Positions 33,645 to 47,517 of a stretch of DNA of 64,000 nt are shown one piece after another. Origin of the DNA: Amycolatopsis sp. QT-25 (GTDB lineage: Bacteria > Actinomycetota > Actinomycetes > Mycobacteriales > Pseudonocardiaceae); contig NZ_CP120210.1 of the NCBI RefSeq assembly GCF_029369745.1, positions 806,001 to 870,000 of the forward strand. Reading direction: 5' to 3'. The stretch's first letter is position 1. Each line of letters opens with the position of its first letter. Made by a program: the position numbers and the translations under genes. A model generated the notes under the pieces. It searched no databases, was not told the DNA's origin, and worked only from the letters and a program-made list of their open reading frames with translations.

Positions 33645-34844
33645 CTAACCCGAAACACCACTCACGACCACTCCGCGCGCAAGGACCAGCCGGACGTTCC
33701 GGAGCGCGGAAAGATCGGCGAGCGGATCGCCGTCCACCACCAGCACGTCGGCGCTCAGGCCCGCGGCGAGCCGCCCGGTCACGTCGCCGAGGCCGAGGCC
33801 GGCGGCGCTGTCCTCGGTCGCGATCTCGAGGATCCGGCGTCGTCCGAAACCGAGCCATTCGTAGAGTTCGAGAGCGCCGACGGGGTCGTCGAAGACCGAA
33901 CCGGGCAACCCGGCGTCCGTCCCCGCCAGGAGTGGGACGCCCAGTTCCTCCAGCCAGGAGAGGCGGCCGTAGACGGTCTTCGCGAGTTCCTCGCCCATGC
34001 GCTCGGCCAGCATTCGCCAGTTGCGGCTGCTCGTCGAACACGCCGCGATACCCTCGGCCGCCATCCGGCGGGCGACGTCTTCGCGCCTGTCCTGCCGCTG
34101 CGGCCCGGTCAGCCACGTGCAGTGCTCGATGGTGCGGACGCCCGCCTCGACCGACGCTTCGATCGCGTCGGCGCCGTGGGCGTGCGCCGCGACCGGAAGC
34201 CCGTGGCGCGCCGCGTGTTCGACGATCACGCGCAGCGCCCGGACGTCGAACTGCGACTCCCACATGTCCGCGCCGCCCTCGGTGATCTGGCCACCGCTGG
34301 CCATCACCTTGATCACGTTCGCGCCGGCGGCCGCGTCGGCGTCGATCAGAGCCCGGATCGCGGCGTCGTCCGCGACCTCGCCACCGAAGAAATGGCAGTG
34401 TCCACTAGGGACGGTCAGCGGAGTGCCCGCCGTCAGCAGACGGGGAGCGGCGACCCGTTCAGCCGCCAGCTCCGCGCGGACCCGCGCGCCCAGCGCGTCG
34501 CGATCTCCGAGGTCTCGCACCGTCGTGACGCCGCTGCGCAACAGCTGTCCCAGCCGGTCTTTGGCACCTGCGCGCAGCGCTTCGTCTTCGCTCGCCAAGA
34601 AGTTCGGCAACATCTCGTGCGTGGCGTCGAACGCTAGGTGCACGTGGGCGTTGAACAGCCCGGGCAGCAAGGTGGAGCCCGGGAAATCGAGCCTTTCGGC
34701 GTCCGGTGCCGCCCGCGGGGCGACTTCGGCGCGAAGACCCGCTGCAAGGACGCGGTCACCCTCGACGAGAACGGCGCCGTCTTCGAGAGGTGTGCCCGGG
34801 CGCGGCAGGATCCGGCTCGCCGTCACCAGCAACTGCGCTGTCAT
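33645..34844 (-). CDS. Metal-dependent amidohydrolase
   Basis: A 399-residue amidohydrolase of the imidazolonepropionase/prolidase-like group. Metal ligands are visible in FNAHVHLAF (HxH), a likely carbamylated Lys in NVIKVMASGG, His residues in AAHAHG and TIEHC, and the catalytic Asp in GTDAG. It overlaps the upstream membrane-protein gene by 4 nt and is the last member of the XRE-metallopeptidase-membrane protein operon. The substrate is unknown; the cytosolic location fits the absence of a signal peptide. Confidence 0.9.
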   Translation of the reverse strand: MTAQLLVTASRILPRPGTPLEDGAVLVEGDRVLAAGLRAEVAPRAAPDAERLDFPGSTLLPGLFNAHVHLAFDATHEMLPNFLASEDEALRAGAKDRLGQLLRSGVTTVRDLGDRDALGARVRAELAAERVAAPRLLTAGTPLTVPSGHCHFFGGEVADDAAIRALIDADAAAGANVIKVMASGGQITEGGADMWESQFDVRALRVIVEHAARHGLPVAAHAHGADAIEASVEAGVRTIEHCTWLTGPQRQDRREDVARRMAAEGIAACSTSSRNWRMLAERMGEELAKTVYGRLSWLEELGVPLLAGTDAGLPGSVFDDPVGALELYEWLGFGRRRILEIATEDSAAGLGLGDVTGRLAAGLSADVLVVDGDPLADLSALRNVRLVLARGVVVSGVSG

Positions 34845-35980
34845 GGTGTGCTCCCGGAGACGGCGGCGGAGAGGGCGAGCAGCGGCCGCACGTCGGATTC
34901 GATGTCCGCGGCGCCGCCGGGAAGCACGAGCTTCGCGCGCCCGTCGGTCTCTTCACCCGCCGTCTGCCGGGCGATCGCCGTCTTCAGCGCCTCCGCGGCC
35001 GCGCGGGGATCGTCGGCGGCGAGCGCGGTCAGATCGGTGTCCAGATAGGGGCTCAGCTGGACGAGCCCGTCGCGGATCTCGATCACGCGGCGGTAGTACC
35101 GGCGGTGGACGGTGCGCGGGCGCCACCGCTCCCACCGTCCCTGCGGCGTGGTCCGGAGCACGATGTTCGGGTAGACCCCGGCCAACGCGGTCCACAACGG
35201 GGTGAGCTCGTCGTGGTGGCGCTGGTGCTGGCGGCGGCGTCGCAGCGCGGCGAACCGCGCGCGGACACCCGGATAGGTGACCCCGGCGAGGAAGAGCACG
35301 CTTCCGAGGAGCACCAGCGGAACGGCGACGGTGAGCAGAAGCGGGATCGACGGCCCGAACGCCCACGCGATCACGATGTACAGCGCGCGGAAGACACTGC
35401 CCACCGCAAGGCAGATCAGCCCGGCGGCACCGAGTTTCAGCCCGGTCTTCAGATGCCGGTCCGCCGCGCGGACGTACCGGAAGATCCACCAGGCGCAGGC
35501 GGCGAGGCCGTAGATCAGGTAGCTCCCGGCGCCCAGGTAGAACAACGCCACGCCGGGCTCGTGCACGAGCTTCGGGCTCAGCGCGAGCCCTCGCACCCCC
35601 GGCGGGGTGATGGCCATCGCGACCAGCATCAGCGCGATCGCGCCGGAGAGCGGGATCAGCTCGAAGAGCACCCGTCCCGGCCGGCGCGGTCCCAGCTCGG
35701 AACCGAGGAACACGATCAACAGCGCGCACACCCCGATGGCGAGCAGGATGTTGTTGACCAGGCGTCCGGTGCCTTTGCCCGTCAGCCCGTCCAGCCAGCC
35801 GGAGACCACCTTCTGCTGGGCGAGGAAGGAGCCGGCGACGCAGACGATCGTGACCGTGATCGCCCAGTTCGGCAGCCGCCGGGGCGCCCGGTACGTCTGG
35901 TAGATCCGCCAGGCGAGCGCGGTCGCGAACAACACCATCGCCACGACGTTGAGCGGGGAGAACAGCGAATTCACAGCCAC
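34841..35980 (-). CDS. Seven-TM membrane protein, MAB_1171c-like (DUF6545)
   Basis: A 379-residue protein with seven hydrophobic helices in the first 235 residues. A cytosolic basic region follows (RFAALRRRRQHQRHHDELTP), then a helical domain with LWTALAGVYPNIVLRTTPQG and YYRRVIEIRDGL. This layout matches what databases name the MAB_1171c family putative transporter; no transported substrate is established to my knowledge. It overlaps the metallopeptidase gene by 10 nt and the amidohydrolase gene by 4 nt, so all are expressed together. Confidence 0.85.
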   Translation of the reverse strand: MAVNSLFSPLNVVAMVLFATALAWRIYQTYRAPRRLPNWAITVTIVCVAGSFLAQQKVVSGWLDGLTGKGTGRLVNNILLAIGVCALLIVFLGSELGPRRPGRVLFELIPLSGAIALMLVAMAITPPGVRGLALSPKLVHEPGVALFYLGAGSYLIYGLAACAWWIFRYVRAADRHLKTGLKLGAAGLICLAVGSVFRALYIVIAWAFGPSIPLLLTVAVPLVLLGSVLFLAGVTYPGVRARFAALRRRRQHQRHHDELTPLWTALAGVYPNIVLRTTPQGRWERWRPRTVHRRYYRRVIEIRDGLVQLSPYLDTDLTALAADDPRAAAEALKTAIARQTAGEETDGRAKLVLPGGAADIESDVRPLLALSAAVSGSTP

Positions 35981-36492
35981 CCTTGATGGTCGCCCAGCGC
36001 GCCTTGGACACGGCGGACGTCATCGTCGTCGGCGCGACGGGGAATCGTGTAGTTCAAGACCGACGCCCATTCGAGGATGATGGTCGCCACGGTCTCGGCT
36101 TCCCATTCGTGCGCCTCATCGTAGGAGGTGCGGCGTAAAGCGCGGTGTACCGCGTCGCTGTCCAGACCGGTGGCCGGGCCGCGCAGGAAATCGGCGGGTT
36201 CGGCGTCGCCGCCGGGATGGTGATCGGCGAGCATGTGCCCGAGTTCGTGCAGGATGATGTGGTCTTGATGAGACTTCGTGGTCTCCTGCTGGAAGAAGAT
36301 GTAGTCCGCCGAACCGGTGGCGATCCAGCAGCCGAAGGGACCCGGCACCTCCAGCGGATACGGCATCAGCCGGATCGGCCTGCCCCGCTGCTCGCCGAGC
36401 CGCTCGCAGAGCACGCCGACGTCGAGCGGTGGTTCGATGTCGAGCTTGTTCAGCATCTTGCGGCAGCGTTTGCGGAGTTCCCGTTCCTTCAT
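35971..36492 (-). CDS. ImmA/IrrE-type zinc metallopeptidase
   Basis: A 173-residue protease-like protein. The zinc site is HELGH in IILHELGHMLADHHPG at about residue 80, with a downstream Glu in HEWEAETVATII as the probable third ligand. ImmA/IrrE proteases are known to cut their partner HTH repressor in mobile elements and stress regulation. ATG 36492 overlaps the XRE gene by 4 nt, so the obvious partner is that XRE protein. The basic N-terminus (MKERELRKRCRKML) is normal for the family. Confidence 0.9.
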   Translation of the reverse strand: MKERELRKRCRKMLNKLDIEPPLDVGVLCERLGEQRGRPIRLMPYPLEVPGPFGCWIATGSADYIFFQQETTKSHQDHIILHELGHMLADHHPGGDAEPADFLRGPATGLDSDAVHRALRRTSYDEAHEWEAETVATIILEWASVLNYTIPRRADDDDVRRVQGALGDHQGWL

Positions 36493-36881
36493 CGGCTTTC
36501 GCCCGGCTGGTCGCGTTCGGCGCGTTCGTACCGTTCGACGAGTTCCAGCAGGTCCATGACCTGACGCCGGCCTTGCGGGGAGAGTTCCTGCGCGCGCATG
36601 GCCATGAGCTTCGCCTCTCCGACGGGGTGCGGTTCCTGATCTTCGAAGAAGTAGGTGATCGGTACCCCGAACAGTTTCGCCAGCGCTTCGACGTAGTGGA
36701 TCTTCGGATTGACGCGTTTGCCCGTGGCGAGCTGCTGGAGGTACGCGGGCGACATGGTGGGCCCGCCGGCGCGATCGATCGCCGCGGACAGCTCGCGATA
36801 GCTGTGCGGGGCGCCTTCGTTCGCGCGCGCCGAATCGATCAGCGCGCTCAGTTTCTGGGCGAAGGTCTGGTACGGCGACAT
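36489..36881 (-). CDS. XRE-family helix-turn-helix regulator
   Basis: A 130-residue DNA-binding protein. The HTH covers about residues 27-80: SYRELSAAIDRAGGPTMSPA, then YLQQLATGKR and IHYVEALAKLFGVPITYFF. The C-terminal tail is helical and charged (RRQVMDLLELVERYERAERD) and could hold the site cut by the adjacent ImmA/IrrE protein. GGATGGGGGG precedes ATG 36881. It is the first gene of a four-gene operon, and its probable promoter is the overlapping divergent pair at 36951-36987. Confidence 0.9.
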   Translation of the reverse strand: MSPYQTFAQKLSALIDSARANEGAPHSYRELSAAIDRAGGPTMSPAYLQQLATGKRVNPKIHYVEALAKLFGVPITYFFEDQEPHPVGEAKLMAMRAQELSPQGRRQVMDLLELVERYERAERDQPGESR

Positions 36882-36950: not shown

Positions 36951-36987
36951 TTGACAGGCTATGTATGCAGTGGTTTACAGTTGTCAA
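36951..36987. promoter_or_regulatory. Overlapping divergent promoters and dyad upstream of the XRE operon
   Basis: TTGACA (36951-36956) and TGTCAA (36982-36987) form an inverted pair. Rightward, TTGACA is followed 17 bp later by TTTACA, and transcription would begin near 36987. Leftward, TTGACA on the minus strand is followed after 16 bp by TACATA, and transcription would begin near 36953, 72 nt before the XRE start. The two promoters overlap fully, so they should exclude each other, and a regulator bound to the dyad would affect both. The -35 elements are perfect; the -10 elements are weak. Confidence 0.5.
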
Positions 36988-37008
36988 GCGGTTTCGTTCC
37001 GTGTTTCG

Positions 37009-37069
37009 GCCTCTCGCTCCGGAATCCGTGCCCTGGGGGTGCACGGACACCGGAGTGAGAGGCGTTTTT
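37009..37069 (+). terminator. Long hairpin A with T-run, candidate end of a short RNA
   Basis: 37009-37022 pairs with 37050-37063 (14 bp, one G-U). An inner stem, TCCGTGC with GCACGGA, follows, and the loop is CCTGGGGGT (37032-37040). GTTTTT comes immediately after, which gives an intrinsic-terminator shape on the plus strand. Only a short transcript from the promoter near 36951 lies upstream, so this may be both the body and the end of a small RNA of about 80 nt. Confidence 0.6.
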
Positions 37070-37110
37070 CCGGGCGGGTGCACAAGATCGTGCCGGATGT
37101 AGTACGCTTA

Positions 37111-37207
37111 GGCAGCCAAGGTTGATCGCCGTCACGGCGAACCCTTGGCCTAGGCCTGTTGCCGGAGGTCGACCCCCAGGGCTTCCGGTGACAGGCCCCT
37201 TACTTTT
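37111..37207 (+). ncRNA. Candidate structured RNA with two hairpins (B and C)
   Basis: Hairpin B: GCCAAGG (37115-37121) pairs with CCTTGGC (37143-37149), and inner TCGCCG pairs with CGGCGA. Hairpin C: GGCCTGTTGCCGGA (37153-37166) pairs with TCCGGTGACAGGCC (37184-37197), including two G-U pairs, and is followed by CCTTACTTTT. A -10-like TACGCT (37103-37108) precedes. The loop of C contains ACCCCCAGG, exactly complementary to the loop of hairpin A; the match extends to 11 nt. No protein frame explains the stretch. It does not resemble tRNA, SRP RNA or any riboswitch that I recognise. Confidence 0.55.
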
Positions 37208-37212
37208 ACAGG

Positions 37213-37258
37213 GCAATTCGTCATCTGGTCGCGTATGCGCGACCAGATGACGAATTGC
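37213..37258. repeat. Palindrome family 3, copy 1 (21-bp arms)
   Basis: Perfect arms begin GCAATTCGTCATCTGGTCGC on the left, around TATG in the centre. It lies 9 nt past the 3' end of the flavodoxin gene, probably as its terminator. The outer AATTCGTCA element recurs at 61647-61722. Confidence 0.8.
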
Positions 37259-37267
37259 GTGGAGGGA

Positions 37268-37720
37268 TCAGGGCATGAGCGTGGCGGCCAGGGTGCCGCC
37301 CAGTTCGAAGCAGGCTTTCAACTCCGCTTTGCCCGGTTTTCCGGTGACGAGCACCGGAGAAGCCGCGCTCTCCCAGCCGAGTCCGGTGGTGATGCCCTCG
37401 ATTCCGCGCACGGTGCCCGAGGTGTCGTTGTCGCCGTGCACGAAGAACCCGAACGGCCGTCCGCGCGTGGAATCCAGGCACGGGTAATAGACGGTGTCGA
37501 AGAAATGCTTCAGCGCGCCGGACATGTAACCCAGATTCGCCGGGGTGCCGAGCAGGTAGCCATCGGCATCGAGGACGTCGGGCACGGTCGCGCCCAACGC
37601 CGCGCGGCGCACCACGTCGACGCCCTCGATGTCCGGATGGTTCGCGCCGGAGAGCACGGCCTCGAACATCTCCTGCGTCGAGGGCGACGGCGTGTGGTGG
37701 ACGATCAGCAACCTCGGCAC
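37268..37720 (-). CDS. Flavodoxin-like / NAD(P)H-dependent FMN reductase-like protein
   Basis: A 150-residue flavodoxin-fold protein. The N-terminal phosphate loop is VHHTPSPSTQEMFEAVLSG, and the flavin-ring segment is GTPANLGYMSGALKHFFDTV, typical of the WrbA/NADPH-FMN-reductase group. It would bind FMN and act in electron transfer or quinone reduction in the cytosol. It begins 1 nt before the next gene's stop region ends (37722), so it is probably co-transcribed with the phosphosugar mutase, although no functional link is obvious. Confidence 0.85.
   Translation of the reverse strand: MPRLLIVHHTPSPSTQEMFEAVLSGANHPDIEGVDVVRRAALGATVPDVLDADGYLLGTPANLGYMSGALKHFFDTVYYPCLDSTRGRPFGFFVHGDNDTSGTVRGIEGITTGLGWESAASPVLVTGKPGKAELKACFELGGTLAATLMP

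Positions 37721-45349: not shown

Positions 45350-47517
<2,168 letters not shown>

Follow-up and report, generated by a model that had tools for sequence, protein, structure and literature searches.

Why three strong hairpins should stand in a row between an operon for an EspR-like XRE regulator and a convergent FMN_red-like gene, with the loops of the first and the third complementary to one another, is the question raised by this locus of Amycolatopsis. The window analysed is a 64-kb stretch of an 8.01-Mb genome (G000), and its initial annotation had proposed a structured-RNA locus whose hairpins A, B, and C would be either one RNA folded by a kissing-loop contact or two small RNAs whose loops pair. 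Folding returned all three hairpins at the coordinates claimed for them (Table 1), and the folds and the loop complement support the structured-RNA assignment. For the plus strand of 36980-37207 the folding energy is -123.7 kcal/mol, where shuffled sequences average -91.7 (z -7.0), and the minus strand is also stable relative to shuffles (z -6.5); since both strands fold well, folding alone carries no strand information, and the plus-strand orientation is instead drawn from the tails, the promoter-like elements, and conservation.

Table 1. Features of the RNA locus and neighbouring genes, in window coordinates.
Feature	Coordinates	Strand	Basis or remark
MAB_1171c-family putative transporter (DUF6545), gene after immA	34841..35980	-	NCBIfam NF042915 E 7e-103; PF20182 E 2e-26
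immA-like protein, HELGH motif	35971..36492	-	motif in translation
xre, EspR-like HTH regulator	36489..36881	-	HTH_3 PF01381 3e-5; PDB EspR chains E 5e-10
Promoter-like element of hairpin A	36951..36979	+	TTGACA 36951-36956, 17-nt spacer, TTTACA 36974-36979
Candidate XRE operator GTATGCAGTGGTTTACAG	36963..36980		overlaps A promoter, in front of xre
Hairpin A (G-loop hairpin)	37009..37063	+	fold
A loop CCCTGGGGGT	37031..37040	+	complement of C loop
GTTTTT tail of A	37064..37069	+	terminator-like, part of genus only
TGTAGTACGCT, conserved element just upstream of B-C	37098..37108	+	possible -10 TACGCT 37103-37108, between A and B
Hairpin B, 5' hairpin of proposed B-C small RNA	37115..37149	+	lower-stem cells 100% paired
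Hairpin C, 3' hairpin, T-rich tail	37153..37197	+	fold
C-loop segment ACCCCCAGGGC	37172..37182	+	complementary to A
FMN_red-like gene, convergent, downstream of B-C	37268..37720	-	PF03358 E 1e-5

The impression that the locus belongs to no recognised Rfam family held: no family reached its gathering score anywhere in the 64-kb window, and at E up to 5 the site itself gave weak matches only, six of the seven being microRNA families. ARAGORN found no tRNA or tmRNA. An 85-aa minus-strand ORF across the locus was considered and rejected as showing no coding sign, being interrupted by stops in 36 of 55 loci (ungapped, same start), and a match (L021) from a different family of the order, which shares only 25 nt in surroundings unlike the locus, was taken by eye for coding sequence and set aside. 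An almost loopless inverted repeat (CAATTCGTCATCTGGTCGCG...) occupies 37208-37262, between B-C and the FMN_red gene; it is perhaps a terminator shared by the two, and its conservation in aligned relatives is poor.

The protein on the near side of the locus qualifies as EspR-like by its HTH domain and its sequence match to EspR (3r1f, E 4.6e-10), and the similarity to the EspR chains of Mycobacterium tuberculosis spans residues 5-84. A possible difference from EspR is the Amycolatopsis neighbourhood, in which xre is followed by genes for an ImmA-like and a MAB_1171c-family protein and faces an RNA hairpin. The HELGH motif of the ImmA-like protein supplies the HExxH of ImmA/IrrE-type proteases; its match to Pfam Peptidase_M78 (E 0.025, 14.8 bits) falls under the curated cut-off of 22, and no PDB match was found at E up to 5. 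On the far side, a relative of the FMN_red-like gene is present in all 69 Amycolatopsis loci tabulated.

The loop complement stated in the initial annotation is exact over 11 nt, GCCCTGGGGGT (37030-37040) pairing with the C-loop segment. When 31,988 windows of 24 nt, covering both strands of the 64 kb, were scanned for duplexes with the C loop, the best partner, excluding the strand opposite C itself, was A, which reached -28.2 kcal/mol in the windows that begin at 37025 and 37029, followed by a site at 46933 (-26.4 kcal/mol). The leader of xre, considered as a main target of B-C, was rejected, its duplex with the C loop being unexceptional (1294 of the 31,988 windows as good or better). Loss of the complement in close relatives, which had been named as grounds for abandoning the idea, is not general: of 56 B-C loci with xre, 53 retain 10 nt of it, one retains 8 nt, one has it broken, and one lacks A. 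The A loops of these 56 loci read CCCTGGGGGT (48), CTCTGGGGGT (5), TGCTGGGGGT (1), and CCCCGGGAGT (1), with none in the last; the first two form 10 consecutive pairs with ACCCCCAGGG, the second through one G.U, and TGCTGGGGGT forms 8. The stable complement to a small RNA that a sponge should carry is thus present, at 11 nt in the window and 10 nt in the 53 loci. Paired changes between A and C, proposed earlier as a check, are invisible within the genus because the C loop is invariant.

Hairpins B and C behave as a unit of their own. A covariance model of B-C run over 390 genomes of the family found one copy each in 68 of 80 Amycolatopsis genomes and, outside that genus, a single weak match in one other genus. 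Hairpin C shows no variation over its 45 nt in the first 20 loci, and 63 of the 68 Amycolatopsis loci share the identical sequence; the core of its loop, CGACCCCCAGGGC, is found in 68/68, and hairpin B has compensating both-sided changes in two pairs (20 sequences). Just upstream, TGTAGTA of the TGTAGTACGCT element is likewise kept in 68/68 loci, whether A is present or not, and TACGCT would be the -10 of a promoter for B-C.

Hairpin A has both-sided changes in 6 of 20 stem pairs (16 sequences) and a loop core that is invariant in the same 16 sequences while the stem varies and covaries. The claim of overlapping divergent promoters fared unevenly: a plus-strand TTGAC-N18-TTTAC arrangement precedes A in all 55 A-type loci, but a simple sigma-70 scan reported no promoter, the TTGACA/TTTACA pair included. 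Given the overlap, transcription from the A promoter and from the xre promoter would be mutually exclusive. The T-run noted 3' of A is there in the window, but at least four T are found in only 18 of 55 loci and the run is absent in 37. The one terminator-like site in the same scan is a small stem inside the 3' arm of C (37179-37198), a call that covers neither hairpin A nor hairpin C as a whole. That the region might be only the 5' leader of xre, the other ground on which the idea was to be given up, is unlikely from the layout of the sequence, as both A and B-C are situated past the shared xre promoter region.

The presence of A follows xre within the genus. Sixty-nine Amycolatopsis loci were tabulated, namely the 68 with B-C and L115 (G146), and xre and immA adjoin in 57 of them and are absent from 12. 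An intact A loop, CTGGGGGT, is found in 55 of the 57 loci with xre and in 0/12 without; the two exceptions are L070, whose loop reads CCCCGGGAGT, and L082, which has no A, and the exceptional genomes are G161, whose hairpin A is retained but mismatches the C loop at two positions, and G168, which has xre and no A. A sequence that would be the operator bound by the XRE protein, ATGCAGTGG, has nearly the same distribution (56/57 with xre, 0/12 without), L082 reading ATGCAGTCG. B-C without A was seen in the 12 loci lacking xre, one of which (L076) contains TGGGGGT, but at another place. Conversely, G146 keeps the operator, xre, and A, and B-C is absent. At the place of A, 7 of the 12 loci without xre and A (L016, L019, L020, L046, L049, L053, and L061) carry CCCTCGG(A/G)GTTGA, which may be a relic or some other element.

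Hairpins with a TGGGGGT loop also stand beside other xre genes. On unrelated stems, they lie on the divergent side of the xre match, at a distance of roughly 120-310 nt, in Sciscionella, Tamaricihabitans, A. jejuensis, A. suaedae, A. palatopharyngis, and several other genera, as well as at a second Amycolatopsis xre paralogue. Among 114 further EspR-like xre regions (Amycolatopsis B-C loci excluded; related species and five repeats included, so that 109 are distinct, with no repeat among the matches), 26 hold such a hairpin, representing by eye perhaps a dozen distinct stems. In the same regions the reverse complement of the motif gave 0 and the other 20 letter orders gave 0-3, and shuffles that kept dinucleotides approximately only gave a mean of 0.02, no single run of the 100 exceeding 1. 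The choice of motif followed its first sighting, and among regions added later 17 of 91 were positive (7/40 and 10/51). Both strands of 440,028 nt of flanking sequence contain TGGGGGT 13 times and the hairpin 0 times. The window's own hairpin A, with an inner uninterrupted stem of 7 bp, scores 19, below the threshold of 20 used in the xre-region and flank scans.

No TGGGGGT hairpin was found at Lentzea, Streptomyces, and Actinophytocola loci, some of which have other GGGGG hairpins (L265, L293). Among 23 further loci, L435 (G405) is a new case and L415-L418 (genus g23) repeat a known stem; L420 scores 14, four loci of genus g20 (L436, L438, L439, and L440) have GGGGGA variants, and the rest have none. 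The G-loops of g20 read GGGGGAGU, GGGGGAGG, GGGGGAUG, or GGGGGAGUG. The idea that they covary with C-rich loops of the same genus found no support, four matched pairs scoring 31 against 28-33 for permuted ones, which is not significant. A terminator-like hairpin of g20 (L475, L477-L487, L489, and L496) mostly keeps a C-rich loop (GACCCCCAGC, GACTCCCCCAC) across species; the gene before it we take, from its C-terminus, to be rbpA. In three xre relatives without a G-loop hairpin (L178, L180, and L182), the divergent side apparently opens, by eye, with an ORF for a small secreted protein, and this suggests that a protein in some cases and an RNA in others is under the control of the xre family.

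The C loop, too, extends beyond Amycolatopsis. Its exact 15-mer, GTCGACCCCCAGGGC, is present in 80 of 307 genomes and 21 of 46 genera of the family and is commoner than a reversed control. Among the 61 places listed, 13 fold, in a short fold, as a hairpin with the C loop: seven in genus g39 (7/7 genomes), five of nine places in genera g34/35/57, and L139; in the other four of those nine a shorter stem is possible and the short fold favours another structure. Across 15 sequences, chosen for their ability to form the hairpin, 10 of 11 pairs have both-sided changes and the stems are unrelated across genera, with a covariation score of 0.74 against 0.27 for shuffled and at most 0.16 for slid alignments. 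Two genomes of g35 (G222 and G223; L128-L131) each hold two C-loop 15-mers, all four matched by the C-hairpin model.

At E 0.05, a general C-hairpin model had matches in 195 of the 390 genomes of the family; the weak matches were for the most part uninformative. Among 20 weaker matches, clear C-loop hairpins were recognised by eye at L345 (Sciscionella), L346/L347 (g29), L348 (g20), L355 and the arrays L360/L361 (g38), L351/L352 (g35), and L358 (g60); all of these sites also lie inside open frames of at least 184 codons (292 at L345, 390 at L355), so they may be coding. Of 66 further places, 50 were looked at (30 loci and 20 regions, leaving out 16 of G392), and 5 of the 50 scored at least 15. 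A search for such loops, run without a shuffled control, found candidate hairpins with the loop ACCCCCAG in G-loop genomes of four other genera, Sciscionella G390 (L345), g38 G228 (L355), Tamaricihabitans G394 (L473), and G381 (L464), in each on a different contig from the G-loop. Candidates in genus g23 (L362, and L462 with a ACACCCCCGG loop) were set aside as weak. The hairpins at L360 and L361 consist of two ACCCCCAG loops in a row with further C-rich-loop hairpins between, giving the appearance of a tandem 6C-like array. A 6C-like hairpin pair with the loop ACACCCCCGG is similar in two genera, at L462 (G094) and L470 (G394), below the Rfam cut-off, and L464, in a genome (G381) that also has an xre-linked G-loop hairpin, shows consecutive hairpins with loops TGACCCCCAGG and TAACCCCCAGG.

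The known RNA that these elements call to mind is 6C (RF01066; B11 in mycobacteria), which likewise presents a C-rich loop on a stable hairpin; the loop sequence CGACCCCC followed by GGG occurs in both, the consensus of 6C loop 1 being gaCCCCCCggg. In B-C, by contrast, there is a single C-rich loop, of five C and an A (CGACCCCCAGGG against CGACCCCCCGGG in 6C), on the 3' hairpin. PMC8388888 defines 6C by two hairpins, each with at least six C, and PMC10470900 has repression by B11/6C depend on its two C-rich loops and a G-tract; hairpin B lacks a C-rich loop, and the loop of hairpin C contains five C. RF01066 had no match in the window at gathering or at the site at E up to 5, and none at gathering in 17 loci of relatives, where L129 reached 30.7 bits against 47. 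In g34/35/57 the C-loop hairpin is followed by another whose loop is also rich in C (five or six), which is the 6C architecture, and the same holds for G402 (L358, g60); a 6C match at E 0.001 is absent from all eight genomes of g34/35/57. A true 6C lies elsewhere in the G000 genome, separate from B-C. Judged by sequence and predicted structure, the C loop belongs to a wider family that resembles 6C RNA without matching Rfam 6C.

The sequence analysis shows the structures, the loop complement, their conservation, and the linkage of A-type hairpins to xre; expression of the RNAs, their pairing in the cell, control by XRE and ImmA, and the targets of B-C are inferred. The reading that we prefer, to which we give just short of an even chance, is that hairpin A is an XRE-controlled antagonist, or sponge, of a 6C-like small RNA, B-C. 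The locus would then consist of two small plus-strand RNA units. B-C would be a small RNA of about 95 nt resembling 6C, with the C-rich loop of its 3' hairpin suited to gripping G-rich sequences, and hairpin A would be a separate short RNA made from the promoter facing xre, its loop mimicking a G-rich target and pairing with the C loop so that B-C is titrated or inactivated. The EspR-like XRE presumably keeps the A promoter down and the ImmA-like protease presumably lifts this repression after a signal; A, once made, would release the targets of B-C.

Between the two models offered at the outset, two small RNAs whose loops pair fit better than one RNA with a kissing loop, because B-C occurs without A in the 12 loci lacking xre, A occurs without B-C in G146, and in the four other genera (Sciscionella, Tamaricihabitans, G381, and G228) the contig with the G-loop hairpin is not the one with the C-loop hairpin. 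A single RNA, read from the A promoter through to C so that an A-C kiss masks the C loop, beside a short free B-C, would suit the 37 of 55 loci in which A has no T-run and the A-to-C loop distance, which despite divergence stays at 132-143 nt in 54 of 55 loci, but L083, with 188 nt, departs from that spacing, and with the separate occurrences just given we consider it unlikely. We hold it likewise unlikely that the G-loop hairpin linked to xre serves as a leader or terminator, or as a binding site for a protein or the ribosome, its match to the C loop being secondary. The G-loops in genera without an established C-loop RNA, at the second xre paralogue of Amycolatopsis, and in G146, which has no B-C, would be expected if so, as would a g20 loop of GGGGGA rather than GGGGGU and a matched-partner test without significance; yet the complement of the Amycolatopsis A loop runs to 10 nt, beyond the shared 7-nt core, and five CUCUGGGGGU variants retain it through G.U.

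Hairpin A could also be aimed at canonical 6C RNA, instead of or besides B-C, since the duplex of its loop with 6C loop 1 has an energy of -20.6 kcal/mol (against -23.2 for the C loop; -24.8 against -26.2 with longer loops), and the G-loops of Sciscionella and g23 pair more strongly with 6C (-21.6 and -19.3) than with their own C-loop candidates (-18.8 and -15.8). Canonical 6C is moreover present, over the cut-off, in all 13 other-genera genomes tested, the 13 copies listed reading CGACCCCCCGG, as well as in G000. We nevertheless think this target quite improbable: the invariant U before GGGGG fits ACCCCCA and not ACCCCCC, the longest Watson-Crick run of nine G-loops is 6-7 with 6C but 7-10 with the B-C loop, rising to 11 for A, and in the 64-kb duplex analysis the B-C loop is a better partner than either 6C loop for each of nine G-loops. 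Ordinary terminators or spacer hairpins, free of any regulatory role, would explain the T-rich tail of C, and these genomes hold many GC-rich terminator-like hairpins, but a loop kept on changing stems across genera and the motif-specific statistic would be unexpected of terminators, and we regard this explanation as very improbable.

Known RNA sponges are often derived from mRNA or tRNA or linked to Hfq. The proposed antagonist shares with sponges in general the titration of a small RNA through complementary pairing, and differs in that Amycolatopsis A is a dedicated hairpin linked to a repressor/protease operon. In Campylobacter, according to PMC8687705, CJnc180 and CJnc190 form a pair in which the antagonist is a cis-encoded antisense RNA; A differs in its arrangement, since it shares its strand with B-C in a tandem order, is complementary to it over no more than a loop, and is tied to xre. 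In the open literature, searched at title level, we found no report of an antagonist of 6C and no small-RNA study of this Amycolatopsis locus, and the literature searched held no description of a class of xre-linked antagonist hairpins.

The RNA pair is real and conserved, and the best view of it is that a 6C-like small RNA stands beside its antagonist, a hairpin linked to xre that belongs to a wider class. For the family as a whole, we propose tentatively, and with somewhat less than even credence, that EspR-like XRE/ImmA operons of Pseudonocardiaceae encode, opposite the repressor gene, a dedicated hairpin with an invariant UGGGGGU loop as a switchable sponge for an ACCCCCA-loop, 6C-like RNA family, so that the output of the repressor and protease may be the release of a small-RNA regulon. 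Small RNAs of the 6C type are widespread in actinomycetes; if the proposal is true, a loop-complementary RNA under a repressor and a protease would explain how such a small RNA is switched off, and XRE/ImmA/MAB_1171c operons would gain an output.
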